From Clavelina lepadiformis (lineage: Eukaryota; Chordata; Ascidiacea; Aplousobranchia; Clavelinidae), in contig NC_135240.1 in assembly GCF_947623445.1 (NCBI RefSeq), positions 22,816,001 through 22,880,000 on the forward strand: 64,000 bases of DNA, in the 5' to 3' direction. The translations under genes were made by a program, and so were the position numbers. Below, in pieces: positions 6,563 to 64,000 of the stretch. The notes under the pieces were generated by a model. The model was not told the DNA's origin. It made no database searches and worked only from the letters and a program-made list of their open reading frames with translations. Position 1 is the first letter of the stretch. Each line of letters opens with the position of its first letter.

Positions 6563-7034
6563 CTGGATATAGGTCTTTGTACATCGGAACATCAGCATAA
6601 TTCCACCACCCACGGGATAGGCCTGTAGGGTAATATTAACACGTTAAAAATGTCGACAGTTCTAAAGTTTTCCAATGATTTTGAAACTTTGCGCAATAAT
6701 ATAGAATAAATTTGAAGAAAGTGTATAAAATTTTAAGTTAAGATTCTTTTTCCGAATTTTGGATTTTACTGGCGTTGAGAGGAAAGTACTTAAGGTAAAT
6801 CACCGAATAGATTACCTTGTAAACACCATTACAGATGAAATATTTAGAAGTGAAAGTCAGTTTTGACATTTTCAGCAAAGACTGCAAAATAATTTTTGAA
6901 GTTTGACAATTTTCTAGCCGTTTCCCATCGCCAGTAGCATGTGGTCTGTTCTGGTTTTATATTACACATGGGACTTCCCGTAAGTAAAAATCATAAGAAA
7001 ATCAAGACTGAGACATGATGAACGATCTAATCTA
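6563..7034. other. Intergenic, no feature seen
   Basis: AT-rich sequence between the GTACCG-type MITE and the large KDZ-like element. It ends with the left copy of that element's target-site duplication (CTAATCTA, 7027-7034). Confidence 0.5.
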
Positions 7035-7066
7035 GAGGCGGGGAAGTGATCCATTTATGACCTGCA

Positions 7067-7095
7067 AGCCAGGCTTCTAATTCAGAAGCCTGGCT
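7067..7095. repeat. Subterminal hairpin, left arm
   Basis: A perfect 12-bp palindromic pair, AGCCAGGCTTCT and AGAAGCCTGGCT, separated by 5 bases. It sits just inside the element end where the tandem array begins. The mirror copy is in the right arm near 15423-15450. Confidence 0.8.
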
Positions 7096-7717
7096 CGAGA
7101 TTACAGAGGTCATGGGTTCTGTAGATTGAAGCCTGGCTCGAGATTACAGAGGTCATGGGTTCTGTAGATTGAAGTTACAGAGGTCATGGGTTCTGTAGAT
7201 TGAAGCCTGGGTCGAGATTACAGAGGTCATGGCTCGTATAAAATGAAGCCTGGGTCGGGATTACAGAGGTCATGGGTTCTGTAGTTGAAGCCTGGGTCGG
7301 GATTACAGAAGTCGTGGGTTCTGTAGATTGAAGCTACAGAAGTCATGGGTTCTGTAGATTGAAGCCTGGGTCGGGATTACAGAAGTCGTGGGTTCTGTAG
7401 ATTGAAGCCTGGGTCGGGATTACAGAGGTCATGGCTCGTATAAAATGAAGCCTGGGTCGGGATTACAGAAGTCGTGGGTTCTGTAGATTGAAGCCTGGGT
7501 CGGGATTACAGAAGTCATGGGTTCTGTAGATTGAAGCCTGGGTCGGGATTACAGAAGTCGTGGGTTCTGTAGATTGAAGCCTGGGTCGGGATTACAGAGG
7601 TCATGGGTTCTGTAGATTGAAGCCTGGGTCGGGATTACAGAGGTCATGGGCTCTGTAGATTGAAGCCTGGGTCGAGATTACAGAGGTCATGGGTTCTGTA
7701 GATTGAAGCCTGGGTCG
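7096..7717. repeat. Tandem array of ~43-bp units, left arm
   Basis: About 15 copies of a unit reading roughly gattacagaggtcatgggt, then tctgtagattgaagcctggg plus tcg. Unit variants exist: one has a Cys-to-Thr-like swap to ctcgtataaaatgaag, one is shortened by loss of about 17 bases, and one lacks a single base (tagttgaag). The units have no unique spacers, so this is a minisatellite, not a CRISPR. Confidence 0.95.
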
Positions 7718-8096
7718 ATATCAGAAAAGGGTAAATAGGTTGAATCAGAAGGCAGGAAGGTTAGCCCAGTCGAGCTCTTTTGCTTTTTTTTAGAACTAGG
7801 CTAGCAGAATGCGGAAGCTGATTAATGTTAAAGAAATTACTGTGTCAGTGTGTAGGCCTATTGAATTATTTTAAGTCATGTGTTTTGACTGCATTGAAAG
7901 TTAGGCTAGGCCTGTATCAGGTTAAATTTATTATTAAGCAATCGTAAAAAGGAATATTATAGGTTGTAGCTTATAGTAGTCTACCAGTACATACTGGTAA
8001 AGTAAAGTATAGTAGTCTACCAGTACATACCAGTACATAAATAAACAAATATTTATCATAAAATTCAAAACTATTAAACAATCCGATTTTAAATAG

Positions 8097-11000
8097 ATGG
8101 AGTTAAAAGAGAATTTCTCTTCAGTGTTTTGGGGCAAGAAAGAAGAGATTTTTGAAAAAATTGAAAGCTCACATGGAAAAAATTGTTTTTTATGCAATCT
8201 AGAAATATATGAAAATTTTCATTCTTCCAATGAGAACATTTCGAATCATTTTCTAAAAAAGCATTTCAAATTCGCGGTGGAATTTGAAGTAAAAGGTAGA
8301 AAGGGTAAGTGTTCAAGTATTACTAAATTTCAAATTGTGTTGATAATGTTAAGTTGGGCATTGTTAGATTATAAAATTATATGTTTGTATTTGTTAAGGT
8401 TTTTCTCTTCCTTGCCGCAAGCAAGAATGCCTAGACAGAAAAAGTGAAACTGAGGCTCGACGGAGTCATTTTCACTGCCCTTTTTGTACTCATGTCTTTG
8501 GTCGGAGTACACCTCTAAAACACCACCTCGTTACAAAAAATGGTAAGTTAATTGCTTTGCACTCACTTAGTATCTAGTCTTTGTATAAACATATTTTTGT
8601 TTATGAAGATTTATGAATACTAATTATGGCCTGATAGCTTTTTGCATTTAGTCATTTTTAAACTTCATTATCTGGTCTACCAAATACTGCTCAGTTTTAA
8701 TGGATGTACTGTAACTCGGACTCTGGAAATGATTCTAAAATGTCAATATAACCAATGCTGATATTTTCCTATTTTACTGCACTTATACCTTGTGCAGTAT
8801 ATATAGCTGCCTGGTCAGTACTGATAGTTTTTATGTGGTCATGCTGTAAGACAGGCATGCACAACATACGGCCCGCGGGCCGCATGCGGCCCGCGAAACC
8901 TTTTCGTGCGGCCCACGAGATATTCCGTGATTTCGCTCATTCAGGCATTTTCTCCACGGTTCCAGTTACATAATCAACGAATCCGATGCTTTACCGCCGA
9001 TAAGCGTTAAAAACAACTACATACTGTAGTGCGAGAGGCAAACGTCTCTTGACAGTAACCATCTTCTCAATAATATCTCTTATTCGACGGTTAATCGGTC
9101 ACATTATATAAAGTAGGCTACACGTTAGTTACAACAATGTTAGCACGCGGCCCGCGAAACTTTTTTCCCCTAAAACGGCCCGTGTACTGTTTTGAGTTGT
9201 GCATGCCTGCTGTAAGAGCTATTTTTATACCAGGGGAATGTGGATCAATAAAGTCGTCCAGCGACTGCCATCAAACAACAAACAACAAACAACTGCCATC
9301 TACATCAACAGGTACATAAATGTTTTTGGCTAATTATGTTGTAGTATAAACATAACTTTTCAGTTTTGTAACTGCTGAATAGATAGATTATAGTAATAGC
9401 TGGGGCAAGGGTGGGTAGCTATTTTCTGTTCAACGTCATCTGATAAATATTTAGCATTAGTTGTGAAACACTGCAAAGCCAGTAAATTATGCAGAATGCA
9501 TGCATACTGAAATTATCAACATCCTCAAATACAGTATGTTATAACATGAATTAAATTCTCACACAAGTGTATAGAGAGACAGAGAAAATTCATTTCACCA
9601 AACACTGCACAAAATTTATACACAATTGAAAAGACGTTATATTTTTTCTGTACAAAGACTTAAATATTAATGAGCCTGGTGTCTTTTTACAGATAGAATT
9701 TGTAACCAGGAAGTTCACAGAAAAGGTTTTATGTGTAAAATTTGCAGCCAATGTTTTTCAAGCACGATAGCCTTACGTAGACATGGGGAAAAGAAACATG
9801 ATGTTCTTCAAAGTATGCTGCCATGTGTGACAATTGATGCTGTTAATGGAATATTTATGGTTGCAATATCTAGCAAGGGACCTTTGGCTCCAATACATGT
9901 TAAGAAGAATGTTTTGCAGAGCGCATCTGTTTGCACTAATGAAGAGTGTATGTATCTCATAAAACATTTATCAATCATGAATCCGGGCTATGAATGTCAA
10001 CATTTATTGGCAGTTCAATATTCCCAGATTGCTGAAACAGTCTTTTTACAACAATTTTATCTGAATGAGTTGAGAAGATTGAATTCAATATCGGATAATT
10101 CCTGTCAGAAATGCCTGCAGCTTCAGGAAGCCAGCTTACAGGCACATGTCCCTTTACTGGTTTATGTGGATTTTGAATCACTAGGCTATAGCGGTAGAAT
10201 GAAATATTTCTCAGTGTTATGTGAAGAAGAAAGTTACTTTTCACCACTGTGCAGAGTGAGAGTAACATTTGATTATGATAAAAGCCAGTTTTTTTGTCAG
10301 TGCCCGATAGCAAAAGGTGATAATGTGTTCTGTGTTCACCAAAACATAGCAAAATGGTATATGTGTCAGTATCAACGGGAATGGTTGGAGGCAAGTGAGC
10401 CAGTGAGGTATTATGAATGCTGCTTGAAGATCAAAAGCTATTTTTAATATTACTTTAATTTCACTTGTTATTTTTTTTTTATATTATTTTATCCTGTCTT
10501 TGTTTTCTCTTTTTTCTTTTATAAAACCTTAATATGATGCTTAATAATTACTGGATCAACATTTTCATGAGTATATACTTTCGAGGGATGTGACAAATTG
10601 AAAAAGATTTGGATAAATTAGAATATGGGTAATATAGTTACATGTTTGTGTGAATACAAATCAAATCTGCAAATGGTAACTTTGATCAAGTCCCTTGTCG
10701 AGCAACATGGTACTGTTCAGTGTTTCTTATATACTTGTAATACTTTGTTTTGCTTTCCAAAGACGCAATACTCTGTTACCTTTTGATGAAGCCATGATGG
10801 CTTACTTTCTGGAAGAAAAACGCATACCAACAAATTTACCTCACTATATCCTTGATGATGCTGCTCCACCAAAGCTCCTAATGCCCAGTGAAAAAAACTG
10901 TCCCATTTGCAAGGGTGTTGCATTTACTGAAAAATCAAAAAAGGTTACCGTGTATGGAATGGGAAGGCTATGGCACGGTACGAGCTTTTTTTTAGAGAAA

Positions 11001-13540
11001 CAGCATGCTGTAATATGGTTTTGCTTAGCTTTTTGTTATTTTTTTTGTAATGTCATTTCCTTTCAATTTGGTTGACTTGTTGACACAAGTGTTATGTGTA
11101 AATAAAATTTGTAAAAATAAAATTTAAAATTTGTAGATATTACGTTGGTGACAAAGAAGTGTATGTCCTGTCAAGGATTAATTCGATTCCCAAATTATCA
11201 AAGTGGCTTTCACAATTTTGACAACACCTTCTTGCTGACAGTCAAGCTATGTTCATACTTAATTAGAGGAATTGAAGTTAGCATTATGATATTTTAGCAT
11301 TATTTTGTATAGTTACAATAGAATTCACATAATTTGGCTTTGTTTTAATTGCCATTATGCCAAGTTTACGTAATATAGCAGTTACCGGCTTTTTAATGGT
11401 CCTTTGCAGATGTTCATTAGTCAAAATTTACCATGTTGTTCTTTTATTACAGGATTATAACAATTATATAATTTAATACCTAACTTCGTCAATTTAAAAG
11501 GCAATTTAAGTTTAATCAATTTTTTCTGAATGTTTCATTCAAGTGAAATGAAGTCATTGATAAGTCTTAATTTACTATTAATAATTTCAGTCTTACCTAA
11601 TGTTGGAAGAAATTTGTTGCTGGAAGTTTATAATTTATAAAAGTGTTTTTTTGATTTGTAGAATCATGTTTGCATTGAAAGAAACTTGAAAACTCTGTTT
11701 TATGGACTGGAGGACAAACTACCTATTTCTAAATTTAGAAATGCGGTTTATCATTTTTGTGCACTCCAAGAGTATTCCTATGACTTTGTGTGCTATAAAT
11801 GTGGTACTTCACCAAAAATATTAGTTGGAGATGGCAACTGGAAGAACACATGTCAAATACCCAGTATGAGATTGCTAGAAGTGAATCCATTCTGTTTACA
11901 TGGTTTTTTAGCTGTTTTTGATTTGTTTGGGTTTAGTTGATGATCTGAAAAGGGATGAACATAGATGTTATGTTGAAGATATAAATCCGGAAGAAGTTTG
12001 GTTAAGTTATTGTAAAGAAATACTCGGACGGGGTTTCTTTAGTGATTAACTTTTAACTAATATTATCAATTCTTTTTGTAAGGTATATAGTTCGTTTGTT
12101 ACTGGGTGATAGTTGATATTACTCAATTCAGGTCCAACAAATAATCCATGGAAAGTTGATTTGAAGTTTGACAAAATCTCTCCTTGGATGGGTTTCAAAT
12201 TCAATGTATTGAGATTATTTGTAACACTAGCTATCTGCCTAACCGTTACATTATTTGAAGGCAATTGATGTTACTAACGCTGAAGTGTTTATTTATGATC
12301 CACTTGGGAGGGAAAAGACCATCGCTCCAACCATTACAACTAATTTAACGTAAGCTGAAGCTGTGATTAAAACATTGGCTTGTAATCTGTCATGGAATGG
12401 TACATGAAATTTGTCCAATGATTGACAAAAAAGTTTTATTACTATTAACAAATACACAGGTGGTATACCGTGGACATATGGGATTTTAATGTACCCAACA
12501 GTGAGTCAATAAGGACCTTTGTGCTTTCACAAACAAATTTCAATGTTTGTAATATTATCACACCTATCACTTGGGCTCGCATGAGCTTAAAATTCGGGTT
12601 CGGTACTTTACAAGTATTTATACTGTACTGATATATTTCAATTGTAAATAGATTCTTCCAGAAATTTCATAACATGAAATTGCATCAACCAAATTCATCT
12701 TACGAAGACGCAAAAGTGGTGATGTACAGCCACAATGTACAAAAAGATTCCCACAGTTGTGGGCCCCTCTCTCTCATGGTAAGTGTTCAATCATACAAGA
12801 TTAACCCCCTAACTCATATCTTGTTACGCCCTAACGATGCAGCCACATGGTAGTTTGCCTTATAGCTATAATATTTGTTGTTCAATATGTATGTAAGACC
12901 ACAATTGCATAATAATTGTAGAAGAAGAGCTTGACTTTTACTAGTTGAGTGCTAATGTGCACTTTACAATTCATAGAACATTTAGACTGTGGACATATGT
13001 GGGAGATTATACATTTTTCTGGATTATATGTGACAAAATATTGTAAACTTGAAAATGCCTATCCACTGAAAGCTACTTCTACGTTATGTTTATGTAGGCT
13101 GCCCAGCAATACATGAAAAATGAATTTCAAGAATTTAGAGAGGCTTCCACAGATTGTAATGCAATACGCATTGCAATTGGAAATATGCTGCTTAGACATT
13201 GTGGTAAGTCCATGCTTAATTTATTTGGGGTCCCATTAATTCAATGAAAAATAATATTATTTCACTTCATGTTTTGTTTTTAGACGAAGAGAACCTTGAC
13301 GAATTTTGTGTTCATTGTTCGAAAACAACATCAAGGAGCACTGCATGGGTAAATAGTTTTCGCCTGAAGTTGTTCAATGTAATGTCATAACATTAAGGCT
13401 TCTATTACAGCAATATCAAACTGCTTTGCCTATTTCTCTTTCAGTATGCATGTGATCAATGCTGCCGCTGGATACACGAATCCTGCTCTCCTGAACCGGC
13501 AGAAAAAGAACAGTTCTTATGCAAACATTGCACAATTTAA
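8097..13540 (+). CDS. Transposon-borne C2H2-SWIM-Cys cluster-Ulp1-like-PHD protein
   Basis: About 14 exons: 8097-8304, 8435-8542, 9693-10407, 10763-10977, 11137-11276, 11662-~11902, 11937-12040, 12132-~12220, 12261-12349, 12460-~12489, 12662-12778, 13098-13203, 13284-13348, 13445-13540. Phases agree at most junctions; the 11.9-kb and 12.5-kb junctions are uncertain, with very short introns or damage. Modules in order: three C2H2-like fingers (CFLC, CPFC, CKICSQC...H), a SWIM finger CQCPIAKGDNVFCVH near 10294-10338, Cys pairs CPICKG and CMSC, the block HNFDNTFLLTVKLCSYLIRG, then CYKCGTSPKILVGDGNWKN. An Ulp1/C48-like segment follows (VFIYDPLG ... VQKDSHSCGPLSLM, candidate catalytic Cys at 12758). 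A C-terminal PHD finger has the Cys4-His-Cys3 spacing (CVHC, CDQC, WIHESC, CKHC). From memory, the middle part resembles animal proteins annotated HMG domain-containing protein 3-like. Being inside the inverted arms, it is the candidate mobility protein. Confidence 0.78.
8852..9209. mobile_element. 358-bp hAT MITE nested in the KDZ-like element
   Basis: The ends are CAGGCATGCACAAC and its reverse complement GTTGTGCATGCCTG, and the subterminal regions are rich in GCGGCCCGC. An exact 8-bp duplication CTGTAAGA lies on both sides (8844-8851 and 9210-9217), the size made by hAT transposase. It occupies the intron between the second and third exons of the element's gene. It has no coding capacity. 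Confidence 0.92.
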
Positions 13541-13552
13541 TTCATGTACTGT

Positions 13553-13558
13553 AATAAA
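13553..13558 (+). promoter_or_regulatory. Poly(A) signal of the transposon gene
   Basis: AATAAA lies 13 bases after the TAA at 13538-13540. It supports the called C-terminus after the PHD finger. Confidence 0.6.
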
Positions 13559-14287
13559 ATTCTTTCCAGTTCTTAATCTGTTTGTGGTACAATTATAAGT
13601 CAGGCAAGCGTTCACTGTAAATGATTTATTGAATTAAAGCATATCAGCGGAAAGGAAGGTGTTGAAGAAAGTACTTTTAAACAATTTCCTCACTACAAAT
13701 ACATTCATCTGTAAATGTGTTTTCTTTAACTCATGCAGTCAGGAGACTTCCCAATTGAACGTGGGTCACGTGAATGATTTCACAATCCTAGGAGCAACGT
13801 GAAATGGTCTGCATCAAAAATCCTAACATGCAGTAATAATGTATGGTCAAACCACTCCATTTTTATGTTCTTCAATAGCTAAGCAAATCACTATATACCT
13901 GTAAAGTACAACAAAAGACAATAGGGTAATCAACATGTGAGGAGAAAAAAAGTAATTGGTAGCAGGCATTTTATCAGAAACACCACAAATAAGCAGTTCA
14001 ACAATAATTTTATCATGTACTTGCATAATGTATTTGTGGTTTTGCATAACTCAACATTCCTGTGGCATTCAATTTAACTTCGTGTGTAATTTGTGGGGCT
14101 TAATTTCCGTAATATAGGTAATGTATGATAATTTACTGCACAACGCAAACTTAGTGATACAGGATTTAATTAAAAAACATGATCTATTTCATTTCAAACC
14201 AGCCTTTTTAGGCATGACCTCTTTATTGTCGATCAAACCTTTAGTAAAAAAAGCTGTGAACTTTCCAGTCATAGGCTACCTAGCCTA
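13559..14287. other. Noncoding spacer between transposon gene and right arm
   Basis: AT-rich sequence between the poly(A) signal and the right tandem array. No exon or element end is visible; it is internal DNA of the KDZ-like element. Confidence 0.6.
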
Positions 14288-15422
14288 ACCCATGACTTCT
14301 GTAATGTCGACCCAGGCTTCATTTTATATGAGCCATGACCCTTCCAATCTCGAACCAGGCTTCAATCTACAGAACCCATGAACTCTGTAATCTCGACCCA
14401 GGCTTCGATTCATACGAGGCATGACCCTTCCAATCTATACTCAGGCTTCAATTTATACCGGCCATGACTTCTGTAATGTCGTCCCAGGCTTCATTTTATA
14501 CGAGCCATGACTTCTGTAATCCCGACCCAGGCTTCAATCTTCAGAACCCATGACCTCTGTAATCCCGACCCAGGCTTCATTTTATACGAGCCATGACCTC
14601 TGTAATCTCGAGCCAGGCTTCAATCTACAGAACCCATGACCTCTGTAATCTCGAGCCAGGCTTCATTTTATACGAGCCATGACCTCTGTAATCCCGACCC
14701 AGGCTTCAATCTACAGAACCCACGACTTCTGTAATCCCGACCCAGGCCTCAATCTACAGAACCCATGACTTCTGTAGCTTCAATCTACAGAACCCACGAC
14801 TTCTGTAATCCCGACCCAGGCTTCAACTACAGAACCCATGACCTCTGTAATCCCGACCCAGGCTTCATTTTATACGAGCCATGACCTCTGTAATCTCGAG
14901 CCAGGCTTCAATCTACAGAACCCATGACCTCTGTAGCTTCAATCTACAGAACCCATGACCTCTGTAATCCCGACCCAGGCTTCATTTTATACGAGCCATG
15001 ACCTCTGTAATCTCGAGCCAGGCTTCAATCTACAGAACCCATGACCTCTGTAATCTCGAGCCAGGCTTCATTTTATACGAGCCATGACCTCTGTAATCCC
15101 GACCCAGGCTTCAATCTACAGAACCCACGACTTCTGTAATCCCGACCCAGGCTTCAATCTACAGAACCCATGACTTCTGTAGCTTCAATCTACAGAACCC
15201 ACGACTTCTGTAATCCCGACCCAGGCTTCAACTACAGAACCCATGACCTCTGTAATCCCGACCCAGGCTTCATTTTATACGAGCCATGACCTCTGTAATC
15301 TCGAGCCAGGCTTCAATCTACAGAACCCATGACCTCTGTAGCTTCAATCTACAGAACCCATGACCTCTGTAATCTCGAGCCAGGCTTCAATCTACAGAAC
15401 CCATGACCTCTGTAATCCCGAC
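14288..15422. repeat. Tandem array of ~43-bp units, right arm (inverted)
   Basis: About 26 units, the reverse complement of the left array. Reading inward from each end, the unit variants come in the same order in both arms (shortened unit, then the ctcgtataaaatgaag variant, then the unit with tagttgaag). The arms are therefore homologous, not independently amplified. The right arm is longer because a block of about 405 bp is present twice (compare 14578 onward with 14983 onward). The innermost units, near 14288-14460, are the most diverged. Confidence 0.95.
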
Positions 15423-15489
15423 CCAGGCTTCTGAATTAGAAGCCTGGCTTGCAGGTCATAAATGGATCACTTCCCCTATTGCTAATCTA

Positions 15490-21800: not shown

Positions 21801-24800
21801 GCCACTGGACCGTCTGACCCTCGACCTGAGGAAGGAGCAGGTGAACTTGCATATGCTCTCGATGAATTTTTGGATCGAGTTGATATGGACCCAGTTGATT
21901 TCGATGAAGTTCGACATCGTCCATCACTTGAAGAGAGACTGGAAAGCATAATCAGGTGACACTTCCACCAGTTTTTTTCCGTGACTTTCTATATATTTGT
22001 TTATTTTGATATGTATATGTGATACTTTAAAATGTACTTTAGCATTTGTGCTAAATCAAATTCATAGATTTGTAGTTCAGATTTGTATTTTGCACTTTCT
22101 GTGTAAATTTTGTATTTATAAATCACTTGATTTGTGAAGTGGTCATTGAGTCAAACAGACAAAGCTTCAAAGCAGACTTATATTTACACATTCCTTCACG
22201 GCACACGCACCTTTCTGACTTTTTTGTTTTTCTATTAGCGGGGCTGCTTTAATGGCTGATTCTTCTTGTACAAGGGAAGATAGAAGAGAACGAATTGTTG
22301 CAGAATGCAACGCTGTGCGGCAAGCATTACAGGTTTTATACCTTTCCCATTGTTAAATGCTGTTTAATAAACTACAACAAACTTCAATAGAATGTCTAAG
22401 AATAACGTCATCTTCATGTATTATGTCTTGCAACTATTCAGTAGTTACTCTGGATAACCACGTTCACGTTGAATTATATACATACTTTGAAATAAAAAAC
22501 AACAACATAAAAACTAATAACATCCAAACTTACAACTTCAGGATCTATTACAAGAGTACATTAACAACGCTGGAAGACCGGATAAATCGGATGAGCTTGA
22601 ATCTGCCGTTGATCACATGATGCAAAAAACGAAAGATTTGCGAAGGCAACTCTGCAAAGCAGTTATTGACCATATATCAGATTCATTCCTAGACACAAAC
22701 ATCCCGATTTTGGTTCTTATTGAAGCAGCTCAGAGTGGGGATGAAAAACAAGTCAAGGAATATGCGCAGGTATGTGTCTTATGCTGTGGTGTGGGATTTT
22801 ACTGTAGTTTCTCTCAGTTTATAGCATCTATCAAATATCTCATTAGGTTTTCCGTGAACATGCCAATAAATTGGTGGAGGTCGCCAATCTTGCCTGCTCC
22901 ATGTCAAGCAATGAAGATGGTGTGAAAATGGTGAAGATGGCAGCGAAGCAGATTGAAATCCTTTGTCCACAGGTATGCTCTCCACTGATTGTAAACGTAA
23001 TCAAACTAACAAAAACTTCTAATTTTTCTCAATCACGTTGTAGGTAATATACATTATACATTGTATAATCTTTGGTTTTATTAGGTTATTAATGCCGCTC
23101 TAACGTTAGCGGCACGCCCAACCAGTCAGGTTGCTCAAGAAAATATGGCAGTCTTCAAGAATTCTTGGCTCCACCAGGTAATATAGTCTGTTGTATATAA
23201 AATATACATATGCCGACAGATAGTTTGGTCAATATGGCTTAAAAATCACTTTGTAATTACAAAGTTTATTGATTATCGCTAACACATTGCAGGTACAAAC
23301 CTTAACTGAAGCTGTTGATGAGATAACAACCATTGAAAACTTTCTGGCCGTATCAGAAGCACATATTCTCGAGGATGTGACCAGTTGTGTGGTTGCTTTG
23401 CAACAAGGCAATCCAGAGATGCTTGATAGAAAAGGAGGAGACCTCCGAGGAAGAACTGCTCGAATCTGCCAGGTATGTATAAGCCAATTATCGTACCTCA
23501 CTGACACAGCATACAGTGATGTACTATTCTGAGCTTACTAGAGAAGTTTGCTAGGTTTTGTGGTACTTTCAAGACTGGCAAAGACTTTTTTTGCAAAATT
23601 GAGTCTATAGAATTAACATGATATTTCATGATTATTTGGTAGAAATCAGATTAATATATATTAAGGTATAACAACAAGTAAATTATTAAGTTATGCAGTT
23701 AGTTAAATTTGATTAATAATGTTTAGGTTCGGTTATGTTTACATGATAGGCTAAAATGTATGAGGTTAGGTTTACGAAAATATCATTCATTTCAAGAAAT
23801 CTAATGTTAACATAAGGTTTTCACATGACAGCCTTCCACAAGTAACTGTTTTTGTTTTGTTTGATCGACCGACAAATAGACCCCTACCTTACACATTAAG
23901 ATTTTCGTTTTTGTCACGTTTCTCAGTTTTCATATGGCCTAACATAGTCAAAATTTTTCTTGATGACTTATGGCTTGTTTTAACTCTTGGGCGTCGGTTC
24001 AAAGTAGTGAACAGGTCCTGGTTGTCTCTCTTATAGATCCTGGTAAATATTTGCAATTTGTATCCCCCATTCTATATTACAAAAGGACATCAAAGGTTAT
24101 GTTACGCCAGTGGTTTTCAACCTAGGGGTCGCGACCCCCGGGTGGGTCGTTTGCCTTTCCTCTGGGGGTCGCGAAGACGACAATTAAATACCAATCACTA
24201 TAACGAGAATGCCAATTAATTACCATAAAAAATGAACTGTAATGATATTAGTGAATGTTCAAACAGTGAGCAGCCAGGAAGCAAGTTGCGAGATAGACTA
24301 TTATTTTTGCATATGTATTACACTTGCCTGAATCAATATTTTTGGAAGGGGGTCGTTAGTTACATTGGGTTGTCAAAATGGGTCGCGGTATGAAAAAGGT
24401 TGAAAACCACTGTGTTACGCGATACTGTTACGTAGAGTTGTATATATTAGCAACTTTTTTTTCGTTATAGGTTGTGATCAGTGAAATGGAAAATTATGAG
24501 CCTGACTACTACACAGAGAAAGTTATTGAAACTTGCCACACCCTTAAAGATGAGGTAACTTTAACGAAACCTTCGTTTATATGGCTACAGCCAAACTGGC
24601 CAGAACTTATGCAAGTGTTTTTAGCAGTAGCATTGCTTTTCTGTATTAAACGTTGAGACATCGTTTTATCACAGGTCATGCCCAAGTTTGAAGCTCGCTT
24701 AGAAACCACTGTTGATGCACTCGCTAAAGATCCACAAGAGGATCCACAAGAAAACGACTTCATAGACAGTTCAAGATTGGTCTATGATGGAGTCAGAGAA

Positions 24801-27838: not shown

Positions 27839-30800
27839 ATGTCGAGCAATTTATCTGAATCAGAAGAGTATCGCACGTTTAGAAGTTCTATTCCTTGTAA
27901 GAAGATATTTATAGATGAAGATACATCAAAGGTAAAAATATGGTGACGTTAAGGTGTTGTTTAATTGTGCCGAAATAAAAACATTTTGTTTGCTCGTATT
28001 GATGTTTTTGTATATATGTCTTTTTTCTATTGCGCCTTACAAAAAGATCTGGAAACTGTATGATGCTGGACCGAAGACAGTTTTGACACCGCTGGTATGT
28101 TTACCGCCTGCTAGTGGAAATGCTGACATATTCTTTAGACAGGTATGTAATTTTAGTTTCTTTTAGGCATGTATTGTTTGTTGCTACAATTGAATTCCTA
28201 ATATGTTTTATAAACCAGCAATATACATTGAGGTTTTGGTTTGGTTTGTGGTTTTACTTAAAAAAAATTTTATTATTTTTTATTTTAAATTTTAAAAAAT
28301 TAAAAAAGTATTACTGTGCTTTTTTACCAGCTTTTTACCAATAATTAAAATGAAATCTCTACATGATTGTTGACTTACTACTTGTAGGCCTAGTAGGTTG
28401 TGCCAGCATACCGGAATATGCCTTAATTTTGATGTTTGTGCAAGTCTATATACTGTATATCTATTCATTGTCACCAGTTGAACCATACAAAATATTTCTC
28501 AAATTTGATATATATTTCTTGTTAACTCTGACTCAACGACACATTATTATGAGAAGTCAAGGCATTCATATTGGACTAATTAACATGTAACAAACTAACA
28601 ACTGGTTCTAACTCATAATAACTTCAGAAGTTTGCTGTATCATGTTGATTTTTTGTGGTTCTGACCACACGTAGTTGGCGCACAGTTGTAAAGTCCTTTT
28701 GCACACTAGTTATGTTCATGTGCATTCGACAACATCTTTTTTTGGCACGAGGTAGGCTCATTTCATCTGAATAGTAACCCATAAAGATTCGATGAAGTTG
28801 TGTCTACAACTTACTTGTTACGTCATTTGATTGTTTTTTCACACGAAATTCTGCCATCTGGATTAACAGCCCGTATCTGATAAAGAGAAATAACGTTGAT
28901 ATTTGCTGGTAACAACTAGCACAGCCAGTAAAACTACCGCATAGGAAATGTTGAACAAACTGGGATTCACATTTAACAACTCTGGTGTAAAGATATTGCA
29001 ATGTAGTGAATTACAAAACAGCACAGCATATTTTTCTCTCAGCAATTTGACTAATGTTTGATTCTGTAAGTTTTGTCGAATAATCTGATTTTAAAGATAA
29101 AAATCACAGTTTTAAAAAAGACATGCATAAAATTTATCACGTGCCACAAATTAATCCTTTTGTGTGATTTCATGTCATGTCAAGTTTGTCTGACTGATTT
29201 TCATGTTTTAGGTAGTCTATCTTTCTGCACTTGGCTATCGAGTAATCGCACTGGATTATCCTGTGTACTGGACTGTTGATGATTTTTGCAATGGTCTCCG
29301 AAAACTTGTTGATTATCTTAATCTCAACCAGGTGCATATATGTTTGATTACTTTTATTGACTAATTAAGTATGTATTTGAAAACACTATAATATCAGTGT
29401 AGTTCTTTTAAAATAATATAAATTTGCCTAATGCTTTAACATAATACCATGAGTCATTTTACAAGAAATTAAACTATTAATGGATTCATTTTTCAAGATT
29501 TTTTCCTACTTGCAGATCCACGTTTTTGGTTGCGGTTTGGGAGGGTTTCTTGCCATGAAATTTGCAGAACGTACTCGGACAAAACAATATGTTCTGTCAA
29601 TAATCTTGTGTAACACATTCACAGACACAACAGTGTTCAAGTTACAGCATATGTCTGCCATGATGTGGACATTACCTTCATTTGTTTTGAAGAGATTCAT
29701 TCTCAATAGGTTCTCTGCTGGTGTGTAGAGCTTACTATTACAATGCATGTGACAAGTGCACATTGAATAACTCGTGCACGTATTACAAGTTGAATGGTGT
29801 AGTGCAGGGATGTCGAACCTGCGGCCCGCCTGAGATTTTTGTGCGGCCCGCTAGTCATTTTCACTCCAAAAGTATGTACTTTATGCACCCATTTTTCTTG
29901 AAATTGCATAGGTTCTGCGGCCCATTGAATTATTTCAAGTGACAATGCGGCCCACTATAATAAAAGGTTGGACATCCCTGGTGTAGTGCATTCTTCTTGA
30001 TTACTTTTGGTTTTCTTTTATTCACATAGGAGCAATTAATACCATTTATCACTATAACTTAGGTTACACTGATGTTGAGCAAGCTGATGCCCTTGATTTT
30101 GTGGTTGAAAAACTCAGTGATCTTAGTCAAAAAGATCTAGCGTCAAGGTTGAAACTACACTACAGCGGAGAATACGTGAGATATCCACAGCAGTTGCAGA
30201 ACACACCTGTCACTCTCATGGATGTGTTTGATGATTACACTTATCCTCAGGTGACTATTTTGTTCTTGGTCTCTGTGGCTATGAGTTAATTGTTAAAACA
30301 ACTATTATTTTATTTGTATTTTGCTGGAAACTGGAAAGCCAGACTTGTATATGTTTAGGGTGTTAAAGAGGGAACTTACAAATGCTTTCCATTGTCAAAG
30401 CAAGCACTTCTTAAAAGTGGAGGACATTTTCCATATTTAAGCCGAAGTTCGGAGGTTAATCTTCATTTGCGATTACATCTTCGTCAATTTCAGGTAAATG
30501 CTCAGAGGTTATATATTTTAGGCTGCCACTATTTCACCGGAATAATCGTACGTTCCAAGCTATTTTCACAGGTTTCTTGTTAGCCTAACTTAAATATTAT
30601 ACCAAAGTAACCTAAATCTACTTTCTAATCTAAATCTAACTTCAATTAAACCCCAAATAACTATAATCAAATTTTTGGATGCCCATTCTCCTAACCTAAC
30701 TGCCTACGGTATCTTTAAGAACCTGCTGCATGACCTGCTTGCAGTAAATTAGTCACTTCCTCTATTTTATCAAGTTTGAAGTATTTGGTACTGGTAACAT

Positions 30801-42929: not shown

Positions 42930-44745
42930 CACTACGTAACAAAATTCAAAAAATTTTTTGTTTGGCTACATTTATTAAGTGTATCTGTATGATTTTCAAG
43001 CACTGATTTCAAAAATGCTATCAGTTTTTTTCTATCATCGATCGTTTTCAAAATACAAAAATTTCCGTTTTTTGTGATTTTCCATTAACTGTAGGTATTT
43101 TATGCGGTTATGATCTGTGTCTGTCAGCACTATCATGTTGTAAATGGGTGTCCTATTTACTTGAGAAAGTGAATGGGAGTGGGAGTTTGAAATGCAGACG
43201 AATGTGCTTTTATTTCTTATCTCAGTTTTCATTTTATCTCAGCCTGTTAAATTCAGTATTTCATTAGAAAGTCATGTTTAGTGTTTACAGAGAGAAGTAT
43301 GCCATATGATTACATTTTGTAGAGTTAAGTCTTGTGTAAATCTTAGATTCAGTTCATCTTTTAAATAGTAGAAATCAAAAAGTCTAGTAGAGAGTGAAAA
43401 ATTTTAAGTAAGAGTACTGCCTACCCCACAGGAATAGGCACTTGGAGTTTTCTGTCTACCTTGACGTTTTTGAAGACCTTTGCTATTGCAAAGATGTGGA
43501 AGGCCTGTTTTGTGCTGTTGGAATAGATCATGATCCTACTCAGTGGCGGCGTTTCATTGACAGTTCTACCAAAAGTCTTAAAGCAGTGTTACTTCACAAT
43601 GGCAACATATACCCATCAATTCCACTTGCTTATTCCTTACAGATGAAAGAAGATTATGAAAACGTCAAGCAACTGCTCATTAAAATCAATTACACTCAGT
43701 TTAAGTGGTATGTTTGTGGTGACTTTAAAATGTTGGGAATTGTGCTTGGTCTGCAGGGTGATTACACAAAATACTCTTGTTTTCTGTGCTTGTGGAATAG
43801 TAGAGCTGACGGTGAGCACTATGAGAAAATTAATGGCCGACACGGGAAAAACTAAACCCAGGAATGTACAACGTTATTAGGGAACCTAAGCCGGGAAATA
43901 GTTTTACTGCCTCCACTTCATATCAAATTAGGTCTGGTAAAACAGTTTGTCAAAGCTTTGGATTTTCAAGGACAAGTTTTTCAAGAAATCCGTTTAATGT
44001 TTCCCAGACCATCACTTACCAAAATAAAAGGAGGAATATTTGTTGGTCCTCAGATAAATACAATGTTAAAGTGTAAAAGCTTGGAAGAAAAAATGAATGA
44101 AACAGAAAAAGAAGCGTGGCAAGCATTTCGAGGTGTGGTTGATGGATTTTTGGGCAATAAAAGGGACAGAAATTACAAAGAGTTGGTGGAGAAACTGATC
44201 AAAAGTTTCCAAAACATGGGTTGTCGCATGTCTGTCAAACTTCATTTTTTATGTCCGCATCTGGATTTTTTTCAAGAAAATCTAGGTGATTTCAGTGAGG
44301 AGCACGGTGAGAGACTTCATCAGGATATTGAGCCAATGGAATAACGATATAAAGGCCGCTGGGATAGTGTAATGATGGGAAACTACATTTGGTCTTTAGT
44401 AAGGCAAGACAGGAGTAGTCATAAAAGAAAAACTCGCTCAAAAGTACATTTTTGAACGACTCTTAGTGTTTGACAAAACTATGTTACATTTATCTTCAAG
44501 CCTTCCTTATTAACGTTTTTAAACTGGTTTTTGCGTTTAATAAACCAAACAGAACCTTGATGTGGAGCTAAAATCTACTGCAAGAGTAGAACACGATTTG
44601 CTGTACTTACAGCTATATCAAAATTTGAATATCTCAAAAAGTAACGATGGTACAAAAAAACTAACTGGATTTTTGAACTCAACACCCAAAAATACATAAA
44701 GGGGCATTAAAAAAAGTAGCCAAACAAAAATTGTGTTACGTAGTG
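42930..44745 (+). mobile_element. 1.8-kb DNA transposon with CACTA-type ends
   Basis: The ends are CACTACGTAACA and its near-perfect reverse complement (TGTTACGTAGTG). A further inner match (TTTTGTTTGGCTAC) lies within 30 bp of each end. A 3-bp TTA lies on both sides (42927-42929 and 44746-44748). CACTA termini with 3-bp duplications are the signature of EnSpm/CACTA elements. It is inserted inside the hAT element and carries a plus-strand transposase-like frame. The superfamily assignment rests on the ends only. Confidence 0.8.
43442..44455 (+). pseudogene. Transposase-like ORF of the CACTA-ended element
   Basis: One reading frame runs 338 codons with in-frame stops at about 43853 and 44342. 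Blocks include WRRFIDSSTKSLKAVLLHNG, KWYVCGDFKMLGIVLGLQGD, YSCFLCLWNSRA, LLPPLHIKLGLVKQFVKAL, GGIFVGPQIN and EEHGERLHQDIEPME, then RYKGRWDSVMMGNYIWSLV. I recognise this as a repeated invertebrate family common in insects and Hydra (WRLFIDSS ... CGDLK ... SEEQGERFHQD). FID, CGDxK and E-x-GERxHQD are plausible acidic catalytic positions. Full-length members are longer at the N-terminus, so this copy is truncated as well as interrupted. It is not host coding sequence. Confidence 0.8.
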
Positions 44746-46655: not shown

Positions 46656-48993
46656 ATGAATAAAGTGGAATACGACAAGATATACAACTACATCAAAAAG
46701 TCCGAAATACCAGGCGAGCTTGAAACGTCTCATGCGAGATTTGGATTCAAACGAAAATGTCGAAGTTATGTGTTAGATGAAGGTTAGATAATAAAGATTA
46801 TACTGTTTTCCTAACGCTCAGTAGATTAGGATATACGAGCCTACCTAAGTAAACAATTTTCTAAAGACGATATATTTTCTTGCCTTGCATAATATTGCTC
46901 TTGATAAAATAAACTTCATAGTGTACTAACACCACTGCCGGTAACAATTAGCATTTATACAGTTTTTGTTTTCTTTGTGAGGTTATTTATTTGCAAGATT
47001 TAATAACGTATGGGGTATTGTCTTGGTGGAATAATTTCCAGGGACATGGCGGTACTAACAGATAAATTTATTTTGCAGGAGAAGATGCAGTTTACTACAT
47101 TCAGAAAAATAAAGATGGATCTATTCGTCGCAGATCCAAAGTGATTGTTGGAACAAATGATGATGCAAAAGCAGTGTTTTTGGAAGTCCACAGAGAAAAC
47201 AGCTTTACCCATCCTGGGTTTAATCGAACTCTGCAGTCAATATCTCGCAAATATTTTTGGCCACGCATGACTTATGACATTACGGAATGGGTACTAGACA
47301 CTAATTGATTTCTCATTACGCAAATGTTTGTTCGTTCATTCATTATCTTTTCACATAAGCTGTTTGACAGATAATTTTTCGATGGATTTAATTATATTGT
47401 AATGCACAGTGGTTGTTAAACTTGATGGAGGTACTGAATCTTGCAAGTTTTATGCTTGCATTCACTGAACACTTGGTTGAAATTTTCAACACACATATAT
47501 GTTATATATACATACTGTGTGTTGAGTCTACGAAACCCTAGATTCGAAATGAACCAAATCACTGGGGTTCGATCGAACCCAGTTTAAAAACCATTGTTTA
47601 GTTTCTATTTCATAATTATTAATTACTTTTAGATTCGTTCATGTCCTATCTGCCAAAAAGATGACAAGACAAAATTGGTGCAGTTGAAGGTTAAAATATT
47701 GCGATTTTTTATTAAGGGTTGATGCTGAATTTAATGTTACGAATTAACACTTCAATATTTTCTGTAGGTTACGGAACCATGGGAAATCCTGACAATGTCT
47801 ATAATTGGCCCAGTAAATGAAACAGCAGAAGGATACAAGTTTATTTTTACTGCAACAGACTACTATAGTAAATGGGTTGAAGCTTTCCCTATCTGCAATA
47901 AATATCCTGCAGAAGTGGCAGCTTGTTTGAAATTGATATTCTATCGCCATGGTGCTTGTAAAAGTGTTTTATCTGATGAATGCATTGAGTTTATTACAGA
48001 GGTATAGCCTGCACTGTTGTGCTAAGGGCTACTTTGCGATTTTTTATTGTTTGTATATTTGTAACGAGTGTGGCTTCACAGCACATGTTTCTGATAAGGC
48101 CATGAAAGAATACTTTAATAATTAATTTTACTAATGGTGTTTTTTATATTAGGTTAACAATGAACTAGTTAAGCAGCTTGGAATTCAGCATCGCATCAAA
48201 GCTGTATATCATCCAAATATAAAAACATTTGATGAAAAATGTGCCCAACAACTAAATTCGTAAACTCAATTCTTTTATATTCTGGGGATTTGTTTTTGCT
48301 GCAGTTTCTGTATCTCCGCAATACTTTTTAATTCTTGTTTGCAGCACATTCTTGAACCTGGTTGTGGAGCACGCGTTTGACTGGCCTCACTATATTGATG
48401 GGTTACTTTTCACTCTAAGAACTAAAAAACATCATATTACGAAGTTTACGCCATTTTACCTCATTCACAGACGAGAAGCACGTATGCCTCCGGTGTCTAG
48501 CACAGATCCAGTTGCCAGTATTGATAGTGTAAGTGTTAGGTAGCCACATACTATAAAATCTATTGCTTAGAGTGGTATATGACATGGATTGTAAAATTAC
48601 TAGGAGTTCGACCTGAACACAATCTTGGAGCCAAACTATGAAACTGCAGCCAATAAAGATCACTTGGGTGAAATTCGAAGCCACGAGAAGGTGATGGAAA
48701 ATGTTAAATCTGCAAACCTGGATCAAATCATAGAGAACGCAAGAGAATGGACTGAAAGCACAGAGCACCGCTTTACAATAGGGGAAAAGGTCCTGTTGGT
48801 TAACAGCAAAAAACGCCTGGCAGAAACTATGGGGTCTGATGCGCCCCATTCAGGGCCATTTGTAATAACTGATATTAAGACAAACAAAGTACGATTAATG
48901 TGTTTGAAAGACAGTACCCAGTTTAAGGTAATGCCCAGTGTTGAACGCATTATTCCATATAGAGAATCATACAAAATTACAATGTTTGAATAA
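46656..48993 (+). CDS. GIN1: GIN1-like integrase-derived host gene, complete
   Basis: Seven exons: 46656-46782, 47079-47290, 47633-47689, 47768-48001, 48153-48259, 48345-48528, 48604-48993. They total 1,311 nt (436 aa), with all phases consistent and one open frame. Layout: a short N-terminal region (ARFGFKRKCRSYVLDEG), an HHCC integrase zinc-binding segment (EVHRENSFTHPGFNRTL, then CPIC), an integrase core (EPWEILTMSIIGPVNE, YYSKWVEAFPI, DWPHYIDGLLFTLRTKKH) and a C-terminal FTIGEKVLLVN / GPFVITDI module. GIN1 of vertebrates is an intron-bearing host gene derived from Ginger-type DNA transposons. The intron structure, intact frame and lack of flanking element ends support domestication here too. 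I did not assess catalysis residue by residue. It could instead be another Ginger-derived gene. Its 3' end converges with SREK1IP1. Confidence 0.85.
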
Positions 48994-60802: not shown

Positions 60803-61195
60803 GTCTACTTTGTTACCATTCATACATTGCACAATGCACATACTTGCTACTTTATTCTTTAATCATTGTAATCAATGTAAAACGAATTCCATTATGTTAC
60901 AACGTGTTTATGTGGTAGGTGTGCTTTCTTAGTCTCAATATTTTTATTGTTTCGAATTTCAAATAGTTTGATTGTTTGGAAGAAAAGTTAAAGTTTGAGA
61001 AAAATGACTTTCCGGGACTGATAATCTGACAAGGCTGCCTTATATGTGGGTTCTATCATCAAAATGTAATACTTTAAGGTAAGCCATATATAAATAAGCT
61101 GACAGTAAAATTTATGTGCTGCTACAGTACATTAGTCACTAATGAGATGGAATATATTTTGGCAGCTGTGGAAAGGAAACTTTGATCAACAAGAT

Positions 61196-64000
61196 ATGGC
61201 ATCCTCAGAAAAAGAACTCATGATAAGTGGTGTGAAGGTGTGTTTTCCATGCAAACCATACCCTTCGCAGTTGTCCATGATGAATAAAATCATCAAAGGA
61301 TTAGAACAACAGCAACATTGCCTTCTTGAAAGTCCAACGGGAAGTGGAAAAAGCTTGGCACTTTTGTGTTCTGCCTTAGCCTGGCAAAAGAATATGACAC
61401 AGAGAGTAATGGATGAAGCAGCTGCTAATGAGAAGAAAGAAGCTAGGACTGATTCACTTGAAAGCAATGGGGAAGACTTTGAAAAAAACTCGACATCTAA
61501 TTCGAAAGTGAAATCGTTGAATGAAATTGAGAAAAAGTTGAAAGTTCCAAAGATCTGGTTTGGTACTCGAACTCATAAACAAATTGCTCAAATCACTCAT
61601 GAGTTGGCACGCACTGCTTACAAGACCACAAACATGACTATTTTATCAAGCCGTGAACATTCTTGCATTCATCCTTTCAACAAAGAATCCAGAAATAAAA
61701 ATGATGGTTGTCGTGATCTTGTCAAAGGCAAACACGAAGAGTTGCCAGGCAGCCACTGTGTTTACTATCAGAATGTACATCGAATGAAAACTCACTCCAG
61801 TTTGTATAGTTGTGGCATAACAACAGCATGGGACCTTGAAGAACTGGTTACCCTGGGCAATAGAATAAAAGCATGCCCATATTACAGCACTCGAGAGCTT
61901 ATAAGCTCTGCATCTATCATTTTCTGTCCATACAATTATTTAATTGACCCTTCAATTCGTGCACAAATGTCCATCAATCTCAAAGACCAAGTGGTGATTG
62001 TTGATGAGGCCCACAACATTGAAGACACTTCACGGGAAGCTGCTGGTTTTACCGTCGAAGAATCTGAACTTGTAAACACTATTGCAGATCTTGATCATAT
62101 GATTGTCGATAAAATAAAACCTGAACAGCATGAAGCTTTGCATTTACTTTGCACAAAAATTGGTCAGTGGTTGCATAAGTGTTCTAGCAGCCTCAAGGAA
62201 ACATCTCATGACACTTGGACAAAAGTTTGGGCTGGCATGGAATTCATTTCCCATCTCTCAGATTGGGGAATCACTGATGGTACTTTACCAGAGATAAAGA
62301 GATTTTTCCAGGAAGTGATGGAAACTGATGAGGAAGAGGAAGAACATCCAGCAGCTTCTGTGCTCCATACAGCCAGCCAAAGTTTGATAGGTGGTTTATT
62401 GCACGTTTTGGAGTATTTAATGTACGATTCTCACAGGTTCATAAAAGACTATCGAATTGCAGTAATTCGTTCTGCACAATATGGTGTGCCTCCTCCCAAA
62501 CGAACAAGAGAAGGCTGGATTGCTATCAACAAGAGATCAATGAGATATTATACTGTGAACTTACACTTTTGGTGCCTTAACCCAGCTGTGGCATTTTCAG
62601 ACTTGTCATCTGCCAGGAGCATTGTGTTGACCTCTGGTACCTTGTCACCAATGTCTTCATTTTCTTCAGAACTCGGTTTATCATTTCCAATACAACTGGA
62701 AGCTTCACATGTCATTTCAGACTCACAGGTGTGGGTTGGATCGATAGGGGCTGGACCAACTGGTCATACGTTGCAGGCTACCTACCAAAATACAAGTGCT
62801 TTGCGGTTTCAAGATGAGCTCGGTCAGTTGGTAAATAAGGTTTGTAGAATTGTTCCACATGGGGTTTTATGTTTTTTCTCCAGCTACAGTTTGCTTGAGA
62901 AGCTCAGTGAAAGATGGAGATGTACGGGTTTGTGGGATAGCATATCTGAAAGGAAAGTAATTTTTTGTGAACCACATGGGAGAAACAAGGCGGAATTTGA
63001 AGAAACCCTGAAGAAATTTTACGAAGTTGTGTCATCTGAAAGAACAAATGGAGTCACCGGTCCTTTGCTTCTTGCTGTATGTCGTGGAAAAGTTAGTGAG
63101 GGTCTGGATTTTTCTGACAACAATGCCAGAGCTGTCATTACTGTTGGTATACCCTTCCCCAACTACAAAGATCGGCAAGTTGAGCTCAAGCGAGAATACA
63201 ATGATCAAAATTCAAAAAGTCGTGGTCTGCTGTCAGGGAGTGAATGGTATGAAATTCAAGCTTTTAGAGCACTTAATCAAGCACTAGGTCGTTGCATAAG
63301 ACACAGGAATGACTGGGGTGCATTAATCATTGTTGATGATCGATTTTGCAAGAACCCAAAACGTTATTGCAAGGGTCTCTCCAAATGGGTGAGACAGAAA
63401 GTACTGCGTTATTTGTCTTTCCAAACAGTACAAGAGTCTCTTGAAACGTTTTGCAACATGCACAAATCCGGTGTGGCTGGAACCCTGCCTATTTCTTTAA
63501 ATGGTGATATTTCCATATCATGCACCAACAACATTGTCATCGATGTCGAAAGTCCGTGCTGTTCCAGCTACGTAGCATCAGACAGTAGGATAAAGTCATT
63601 TGTTGACACTCCAAAGGTTGCAAAAACCAACCACGCTTGTAAAAGCAAAGAAAAATCAAAATCGATAACAACAGAGTTTGTAAAATCATCTTTTCCATTA
63701 AAAACATTCTCAACTTCATCCAACAAGGAAGTTATAGTTTTAAACGAATTAAATGATCCAAAACAAAAGACTTTAACAGCAGATACATTTGAGTCTGATG
63801 TTGATGATGTTGTATTTATCTCATCCACTCCCAAAAAGAAGCAGTCTACCATAATTATCCCAGAGTCTCCTGAAGATTCTGTGGAAGTTGACGATGACTT
63901 TAGACCTTTGACGGTGTGCTCAACGAAGAGAAAGAGTTATCCTGGCCGCTCTAAGAAAACAATAGCACAGCAACTTGCAAAGAAATACAAACAGGCTATG
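61196..64000 (+). CDS. BRIP1: BRIP1/FANCJ DNA helicase (3' end beyond window)
   Basis: One open frame of 935 codons from the ATG at 61196 to the right edge, with no intron. It is an XPD-family 5'-3' Fe-S DNA helicase of the Fanconi anaemia/BRCA1 pathway, acting on crosslinks and G-quadruplexes in the nucleus. Visible motifs: GVKVCFPCKPYPSQL (Q-motif region), Walker A ESPTGSGKS (~45-53), GTRTHKQIAQIT, four Fe-S cysteines at 157, 172, 188 and 227, VVIVDEAHNIED (DEAH 270-273), LNFWCLNPAVAFSD-like LHFWCLNPAVAFSDL, VLTSGTLSPMSSFSSELG, VCRGKVSEGLDFSD and the motif VI block ALNQALGRCIRHRNDWGA. After ~740 the sequence becomes a Lys/Ser/Asp-rich tail, as in the family. The long insert between motifs I and Ia of human BRIP1 is much shorter here. 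An upstream noncoding exon is possible (AG at ~61164). Confidence 0.97.
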   Translation, partial: MASSEKELMISGVKVCFPCKPYPSQLSMMNKIIKGLEQQQHCLLESPTGSGKSLALLCSALAWQKNMTQRVMDEAAANEKKEARTDSLESNGEDFEKNSTSNSKVKSLNEIEKKLKVPKIWFGTRTHKQIAQITHELARTAYKTTNMTILSSREHSCIHPFNKESRNKNDGCRDLVKGKHEELPGSHCVYYQNVHRMKTHSSLYSCGITTAWDLEELVTLGNRIKACPYYSTRELISSASIIFCPYNYLIDPSIRAQMSINLKDQVVIVDEAHNIEDTSREAAGFTVEESELVNTIADLDHMIVDKIKPEQHEALHLLCTKIGQWLHKCSSSLKETSHDTWTKVWAGMEFISHLSDWGITDGTLPEIKRFFQEVMETDEEEEEHPAASVLHTASQSLIGGLLHVLEYLMYDSHRFIKDYRIAVIRSAQYGVPPPKRTREGWIAINKRSMRYYTVNLHFWCLNPAVAFSDLSSARSIVLTSGTLSPMSSFSSELGLSFPIQLEASHVISDSQVWVGSIGAGPTGHTLQATYQNTSALRFQDELGQLVNKVCRIVPHGVLCFFSSYSLLEKLSERWRCTGLWDSISERKVIFCEPHGRNKAEFEETLKKFYEVVSSERTNGVTGPLLLAVCRGKVSEGLDFSDNNARAVITVGIPFPNYKDRQVELKREYNDQNSKSRGLLSGSEWYEIQAFRALNQALGRCIRHRNDWGALIIVDDRFCKNPKRYCKGLSKWVRQKVLRYLSFQTVQESLETFCNMHKSGVAGTLPISLNGDISISCTNNIVIDVESPCCSSYVASDSRIKSFVDTPKVAKTNHACKSKEKSKSITTEFVKSSFPLKTFSTSSNKEVIVLNELNDPKQKTLTADTFESDVDDVVFISSTPKKKQSTIIIPESPEDSVEVDDDFRPLTVCSTKRKSYPGRSKKTIAQQLAKKYKQAM

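Follow-up and report, generated by a model that had tools for sequence, protein, structure and literature searches.

The 64,000-nucleotide stretch of Clavelina lepadiformis DNA analyzed here (the window; contig NC_135240.1, positions 22,816,001 to 22,880,000 of the forward strand) carries, at 7035-15481, one copy of a dispersed, recently active DNA transposon family. With somewhat better than even confidence, the family is explained as a group of cut-and-paste transposons that are Zisupton-like in composition and have Foldback-type arms and a transposase of their own. It appears to work like a Zisupton-type foldback transposon, and its membership of Zisupton is not established. The copy in the window, flanked by a target-site duplication (TSD), is laid out as follows.

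7035-15481, plus strand: whole element, 8,447 bp; left end GAGGCGGGGAAGTGAT, right end (reverse complement) CAATAGGGGAAGTGAT
7027-7034, no strand: left TSD, CTAATCTA
15482-15489, no strand: right TSD, CTAATCTA
7035-7729, plus strand: left arm, with 5 unmatched terminal bp, a short inverted repeat, motif, hairpin and array
7057-7063: left-arm motif ATGACCT
7067-7095: left-arm hairpin (stems 7067-7077/7085-7095), read from the sequence and showing as a self-match
7085-7717: left-arm array of 43-bp units, 15.3 copies
14287-15481, minus strand: right arm, with array, hairpin, motif and the unmatched terminal 5 bp
14287-15431: right-arm array of 43-bp units, about 1.15 kb, with higher-order periods of 86 and 405 bp
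15453-15459: right-arm motif

The 8-bp duplication reported by an earlier sequence-only reading of this DNA is exact, with CTAATCTA on both flanks. The inverted minisatellite arms that it described are likewise present, being complementary over 541 nt at 96% (637 nt at 91% in another register); their size is corrected from kilobase scale to about 0.7 kb on the left and 1.2 kb on the right, and their position from terminal to subterminal. In every one of the 16 two-ended copies of the first set the outermost 5 bp are unmatched, with GAGGC at one end and CAATA at the other (GAGGT in L028), and the inverted repeat starts at bp 6 of the ends, with GGGGAAGTGAT; the inverted repeats are therefore subterminal.

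Searching the 209-Mb genome assembly with the terminal bases, as had been suggested, recovered 24 exact occurrences of the 16-bp left end sequence and 24 of the right, while the same patterns read backwards occurred nowhere, so that the ends are not due to chance. A looser search with the left 61 bp gave at least 40 strong places (the best 40 of 45 candidates, both arms of young copies being counted). Besides the window, 19 places were read (20 loci, two of which are one place), 15 of them two-ended and four one-ended (L012/L013, L022, L024 and L027; a poor right-end match in L022 is not counted). Including the window, 14 of 16 two-ended copies have an exact 8-bp TSD, L014 and L028 having none. 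Among four further small copies, three have an exact 8-bp TSD and one a 7-of-8 match, which brings the two-ended copies examined to 17/20 exact, 1/20 with 7 of 8 and 2/20 without. Three copies on one contig, L017 (C1:2421622), L047 (C1:3503383) and L018 (C1:4011686), have identical or nearly identical flanking 8 bp and probably go back to a single insertion that was duplicated along with the DNA around it; independent insertion events are therefore fewer than copies.

An empty-site comparison was likewise productive. The insertion L023 sits in a repeat, and paralogous sites lacking the element exist for it: C1:594531 and C1:1616348 match its joined flanks over 170/170 bases at 98%, while 168/170 bases are covered at C7:2364479 (95%) and C4:23618590 (92%). 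These four places are unfilled sites. The possibility that unrelated satellite arrays flank a host gene by chance draws on the minisatellite nature of the arms and on three places, C1:3157714, C1:3431246 and C6:19997040, at which an array was listed with no listed family end nearby. When the array alone was used as query, however, 23 of the 26 listed places adjoined a listed family end (best 40 of 68 candidates); an initial query that contained the end itself was biased, placing 29 of 30 beside one (best 40 of 74 candidates). Together with the constant ends, TSDs and unfilled sites, this refutes chance flanking for the family as a whole, and its probability can be taken as close to nil.

The young copies bear out the view that the element, with its own multi-domain gene, was recently mobile. 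Identity to the window copy is 99.66-100% in all listed internal pieces of L009, L011, L012 and L014 except one of 373 bp at 98.66% (part of L013), and 98-99% in L010; individual pieces of older copies are alike at about 80-99%. The window copy itself is defective. Relative to L012 it has a deletion of about 1.8 kb at about 12190 that removes gene exons, and L009, L010, L011 and L014 carry other, mutually different deletions. Intron 2 of the window copy also holds a nested hAT-like miniature inverted-repeat transposable element (MITE), which is missing from the paralogue L009, where the empty site is seen.

8852-9209, no strand: MITE, 358 bp, terminal inverted repeat CAGGCATGCACAAC
8844-8851 and 9210-9217: TSD of the MITE, CTGTAAGA

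The 5′ end of the gene faces the CAATA end in older copies and the GAGGC end in young ones, and the CAATA end of older copies diverges from the young ones beyond about 16 bp. An exchange of ends followed by the spread of one arm would explain this difference in orientation.

The gene was modeled on L012/L013 (C1:1917448 to about 1926594), where the left end is missing, and exon numbers follow L012. The frame there comprises 19 exons and 991 amino acids, with all introns GT-AG. Between the arms the window copy does hold a single spliced, multi-domain gene, as first described, which the 1.8-kb deletion has broken; relative to L012, it lacks the remainder of exon 8 and all of exons 9-14.

8097-8304, plus strand: exon 1, frame and splice sites kept in older copies
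8426-8542, plus strand: exon 2, C2H2-like finger below the Pfam cut-off
9693-10407, plus strand: exon 3, C2H2-like finger and SWIM-like CxC..CxH motif
10763-10977, plus strand: exon 4, first half of CxC4
11137-11276, plus strand: exon 5, second half of CxC4
11662-11863, plus strand: exon 6, C..CG..P..DGNWK stretch
11937-12032, plus strand: exon 7
12132-12195, plus strand: exon 8, truncated, cut at the deletion junction at about 12190
12261-12349, plus strand: exon 15, Ulp1, IYDPLG stretch
12652-12778, plus strand: exon 16, Ulp1, Q.D..SCG stretch
13098-13203, plus strand: exon 17
13284-13348, plus strand: exon 18, first part of a PHD-like finger
13445-13540, plus strand: exon 19, end of the PHD-like finger and stop

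Two of the three domain types named in the sequence-only reading exceed Pfam cut-offs in the 991-residue model: Peptidase_C48 (Ulp1; 8e-10, 39.4 bits against a cut-off of 20.7) and, for the Cys-cluster, CxC4, described as "associated with KDZ transposases" (1.8e-9, 38.0 bits against 26.9), the latter answering the proposed CxC profile search. The third, a SWIM-like CxC..CxH in exon 3, was seen by eye, and Pfam SWIM has no match in the model. The protein may also resemble vertebrate HMGXB3. C2H2 and PHD models match the L012 protein below their Pfam cut-offs, and the PHD-like part matches the PHD of KDM5B in the PDB at 2e-4. Searched across the genome, CxC4 gave no matches anywhere; an intron that interrupts the domain is the probable reason. 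Among the exons lost from the window copy is the GAHWVFL exon, where we would place the protease histidine.

The gene bears signs of past selection across subfamilies. The uncorrected ratio of nonsynonymous to synonymous divergence (dN/dS) is 0.26-0.38 for eight older copies compared with L012 over the exons that they keep, a set in which L017 and L018 are twins, copies share history, L019 and L022 contribute no rows and exons 5-8 are present in none of the older copies. Fixed differences between groups fall at 28/250 synonymous and 36/1028 nonsynonymous sites (p=5e-6), and in exon 3 alone, with one old copy, at 6/97 and 2/383. Splice dinucleotides are kept nearly throughout the older copies, the exceptions being AA acceptors at exon 12 of L025 and exon 17 of L016/L023 and a TT donor at exon 13 of L025; frame breaks or extra stops occur in one to three copies each in exons 1, 13, 14, 17 and 18.

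L010, L017 and L018 hold coding segments that have no counterpart in L012 or the window copy. One of these core segments has, in L010, the sequence GGIVHFRCPHGICVYFK...VVFISDISS, and the segment after it VAHHGENRQPGMFRPYKGMLYEW...INTSI. L010 and L017/L018 have 64 residues of this second segment in common, of which 63 are identical, with four silent codon changes and one changed residue; in L017/L018 the segment continues into AEQTNF. Exon 9 (167 bp) is conserved in L017/L018, and its phase fits after the core exon of L017, not after exon 8. These additional coding exons, together with the phase of exon 9, indicate that L012 is itself an internal-deletion copy, which lacks core exons in its intron 8. 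Taking the 991-residue frame of L012 as the whole gene was accordingly rejected, and a protein without any core was dropped on the strength of the same exons.

Distant relatives of the core lie outside the family copies at C2:3734318, C2:22295699 and C3:25212339 (50-57% identity); the first of these, read over C2:3734250-3735350 (L051), is a decayed core relative, 59-67% in pieces. Of the 65 matches to the whole protein in the genome (best 46 of 272 candidates), the lone one outside family copies is C9:3678490 (L040), a decayed relative of the exon-3 protein at 38%. L040 and L051 share EAERFLC-type sequence, and an older related family seems to exist. Since the core exons are strongly conserved and have distant genomic relatives, they are the candidate catalytic core; as a guess made by eye, the acidic residues in DGNWK (exon 6), FISD and AEQTN could form a putative catalytic triad.

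The arms may be transposase-binding arrays. In all five young two-ended copies, each end carries A[CT]GAC[CT]T at position 23; among nine older copies it is found there in five left ends, seven right ends and, at one or both ends, all nine. The two subfamilies have little end sequence in common, yet share the same motif 23 bp from most ends. Its reverse complement lies at positions 25-31 of the 43-bp unit (GTCATGG), where each position is kept at 85-100% across 186 unit matches from young copies and at 94-99% across 203 from old ones (389 in total, overlapping matches included). A motif common to the ends and, inverted, to most units lends support to the earlier suggestion of a binding platform, which stays at the level of inference. 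Published work on Galileo describes tandem-repeat arms with several sites bound by its own transposase (PMC3688188, PMC3573991).

On the favored explanation, the zinc fingers, SWIM-like part and CxC4 would bind a site located 23 bp in from either end as well as the inverted versions of it that the 43-bp units contain, and the arms would act as long binding arrays that pair the two ends. The central exons would form an RNase H-like catalytic core that cleaves the ends and links them to the target DNA at positions 8 bp apart, with the C-terminal Ulp1/PHD part perhaps acting on SUMO or chromatin at the complex. Two-ended copies with gene losses, that of the window included, would have moved in trans, and such copies may arise through faulty gap repair.

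Several findings weigh against this explanation, in addition to the three array places named above. None of the family copies read (the 19 places plus the window) has a whole gene, and family matches in a genome search with the core were confined to L010, L017 and L018 (8 of 8 candidates scored). The catalytic role of the core is a suggestion made by eye, and neither the 991-residue model nor the 139-residue core has a Pfam transposase match. Fixed differences occur at about the same rate at nonsynonymous sites (36/1028) as at noncoding sites (58/1576; p=0.83). As to the arms, the position-23 motif is missing from 4/9 older left ends and 2/9 older right ends, its agreement in young copies is not independent because both ends descend from one arm, and the GAAGCCTGGGTC half of the unit (64-100% young, 94-100% old) is kept as well as GTCATGG. 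Finally, the KDZ model PF18758 matches neither the 991-residue model nor the core at E values up to 10, a negative obtained with an incomplete core and with HMMER filters that drop most weak matches; alignment of the core with the genome's KDZ core scores 36 against 39.1 ± 6.9 for shuffled sequence (672 of 1000 shuffles reach 36), and hhalign on the single sequences of core and KDZ returned nothing. The MULE transposase domain also has no match in the model or the core.

This last group of results bears on a different reading, which we regard as a real possibility that falls short of even: that the core is a genuine KDZ (Zisupton) catalytic domain that has diverged strongly, and the family an ordinary Zisupton member that Pfam misses. 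CxC4 above its cut-off combined with a C-terminal Ulp1 speaks for it, as does the 8-bp TSD, shared with Zisupton and Dileera (PMC12730594), and by eye there is a likeness between C.H...E..DY..LL....D in the core and CRHE...GER..LL....YDIAC in the KDZ protein of this genome; the absence of a PF18758 match and a core score not above shuffles stand against it. The sequence-only reading had offered a KDZ-related element or a new superfamily. CxC4, Ulp1 and the 8-bp TSD are in keeping with its Zisupton-like side, whereas the KDZ profile search that it proposed gave no match in any part of the gene. That the core represents a new transposase superfamily distinct from KDZ, with zinc-binding parts, SUMO protease and minisatellite binding arrays working as one machine, is conceivable though doubtful.

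The genome does contain KDZ elements. All 31 KDZ matches are farther than 10 kb from any listed family end, and the nearest, C1:1374413, is a separate element; the idea that it is the body of the truncated L022 was rejected, as L039 has no family end or family match and matches the KDZ element. A Kyakuja-like element of 17.7 kb at C1:25500643-25518372 (loci L041, L032, L042 and L045) has CACCCC..GGGGTG ends, a KDZ domain and a 7-bp TSD, CGCAGTG, read by eye in the one copy with both ends; its long inverted ends agree at 95-97% between the right end of the C1 copy and the left end of the C2 copy. Members of a second KDZ group, at more than 20 places, have frames mostly of 77 amino acids.

An unrelated transposase (hAT, P, MULE or KDZ) might instead move the family as non-autonomous elements through their short ends, with the gene as helper cargo. 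Short copies of 178, 215, 283 and 318 bp, which hold hardly more than the ends and of which three of four have an exact 8-bp TSD, would suit such a scheme, and hAT elements, too, usually have 8-bp TSDs (PMC12730594). Selection on the gene across subfamilies, the strongly kept central part and the CACCCC ends and 7-bp TSD of the sole KDZ element found with both ends argue against it, and it is judged unlikely.

Elsewhere in the window, a vinculin-family exon lies at 22521-22922 (Pfam 2e-26), a short GCGGCCCGC-type array at 29820-29861, and a 955-codon open frame for an XPD/FANCJ-type helicase (Pfam DEAD_2 and Helicase_C_2) at 61136-64000, running to the window end. Open frames at 43412-44341 and 48604-48990 have no Pfam match and look transposon-derived by eye, the latter resembling the C-terminal part of an integrase.

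Each architectural element of the family has precedents. In the 2012 description of Boehne et al., Zisupton reportedly has a 24-exon gene with N-terminal nucleic-acid-binding domains and a C-terminal Ulp1 SUMO protease, subterminal inverted repeats and an 8-nt TSD. The present family resembles Zisupton in its CxC4, Ulp1, 8-bp TSD, unmatched outer 5 bp and many-exon gene (19 in L012, more elsewhere). It differs in lacking a PF18758 match, in its minisatellite arms and in having CxC4 where platyfish Zisupton has CxC7 (PMC12062965). Zisupton proteins of Pristionchus, compared over the PF18758 domain, have 18-31 exons (PMC9297572). No literature was found that links CxC4 with KDZ, Zisupton with SUMO protease or Zisupton with ascidians. 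With the Kyakuja-like element of the same genome the family shares the character of a large animal DNA transposon with long inverted ends, and differs from it in ends, TSD and the KDZ domain; that element in turn resembles fungal Kyakuja, which has a 7-bp TSD, CA..TG ends and no terminal inverted repeats, in its 7 bp and CA..TG (PMC12730594).

One young multi-copy family unites Zisupton-type SUMO-protease genes and tandem-repeat foldback arms, both poorly understood, with conserved central exons that match no Pfam family, and a motif that recurs at most ends and in most repeat units makes the binding-array idea directly testable. The arms are unusual, as the sequence-only reading held, but not new, given Foldback, Tetris and Galileo (PMC4079207, PMC3573991). 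Galileo belongs to the P superfamily and Tetris is attributed to Mutator, and the available parts of the sources mention no CxC4-Ulp1-PHD gene for either; their TSDs are 7 bp and 8-10 bp, respectively (PMC4079207, PMC3688188, PMC3573991). With both, the family shares long inverted arms with tandem repeats and deletion derivatives (PMC4079207, PMC3688188, PMC3573991), and its long inverted tandem-repeat arms constitute a Foldback architecture, a term that denotes a structure and not a phylogenetic family.

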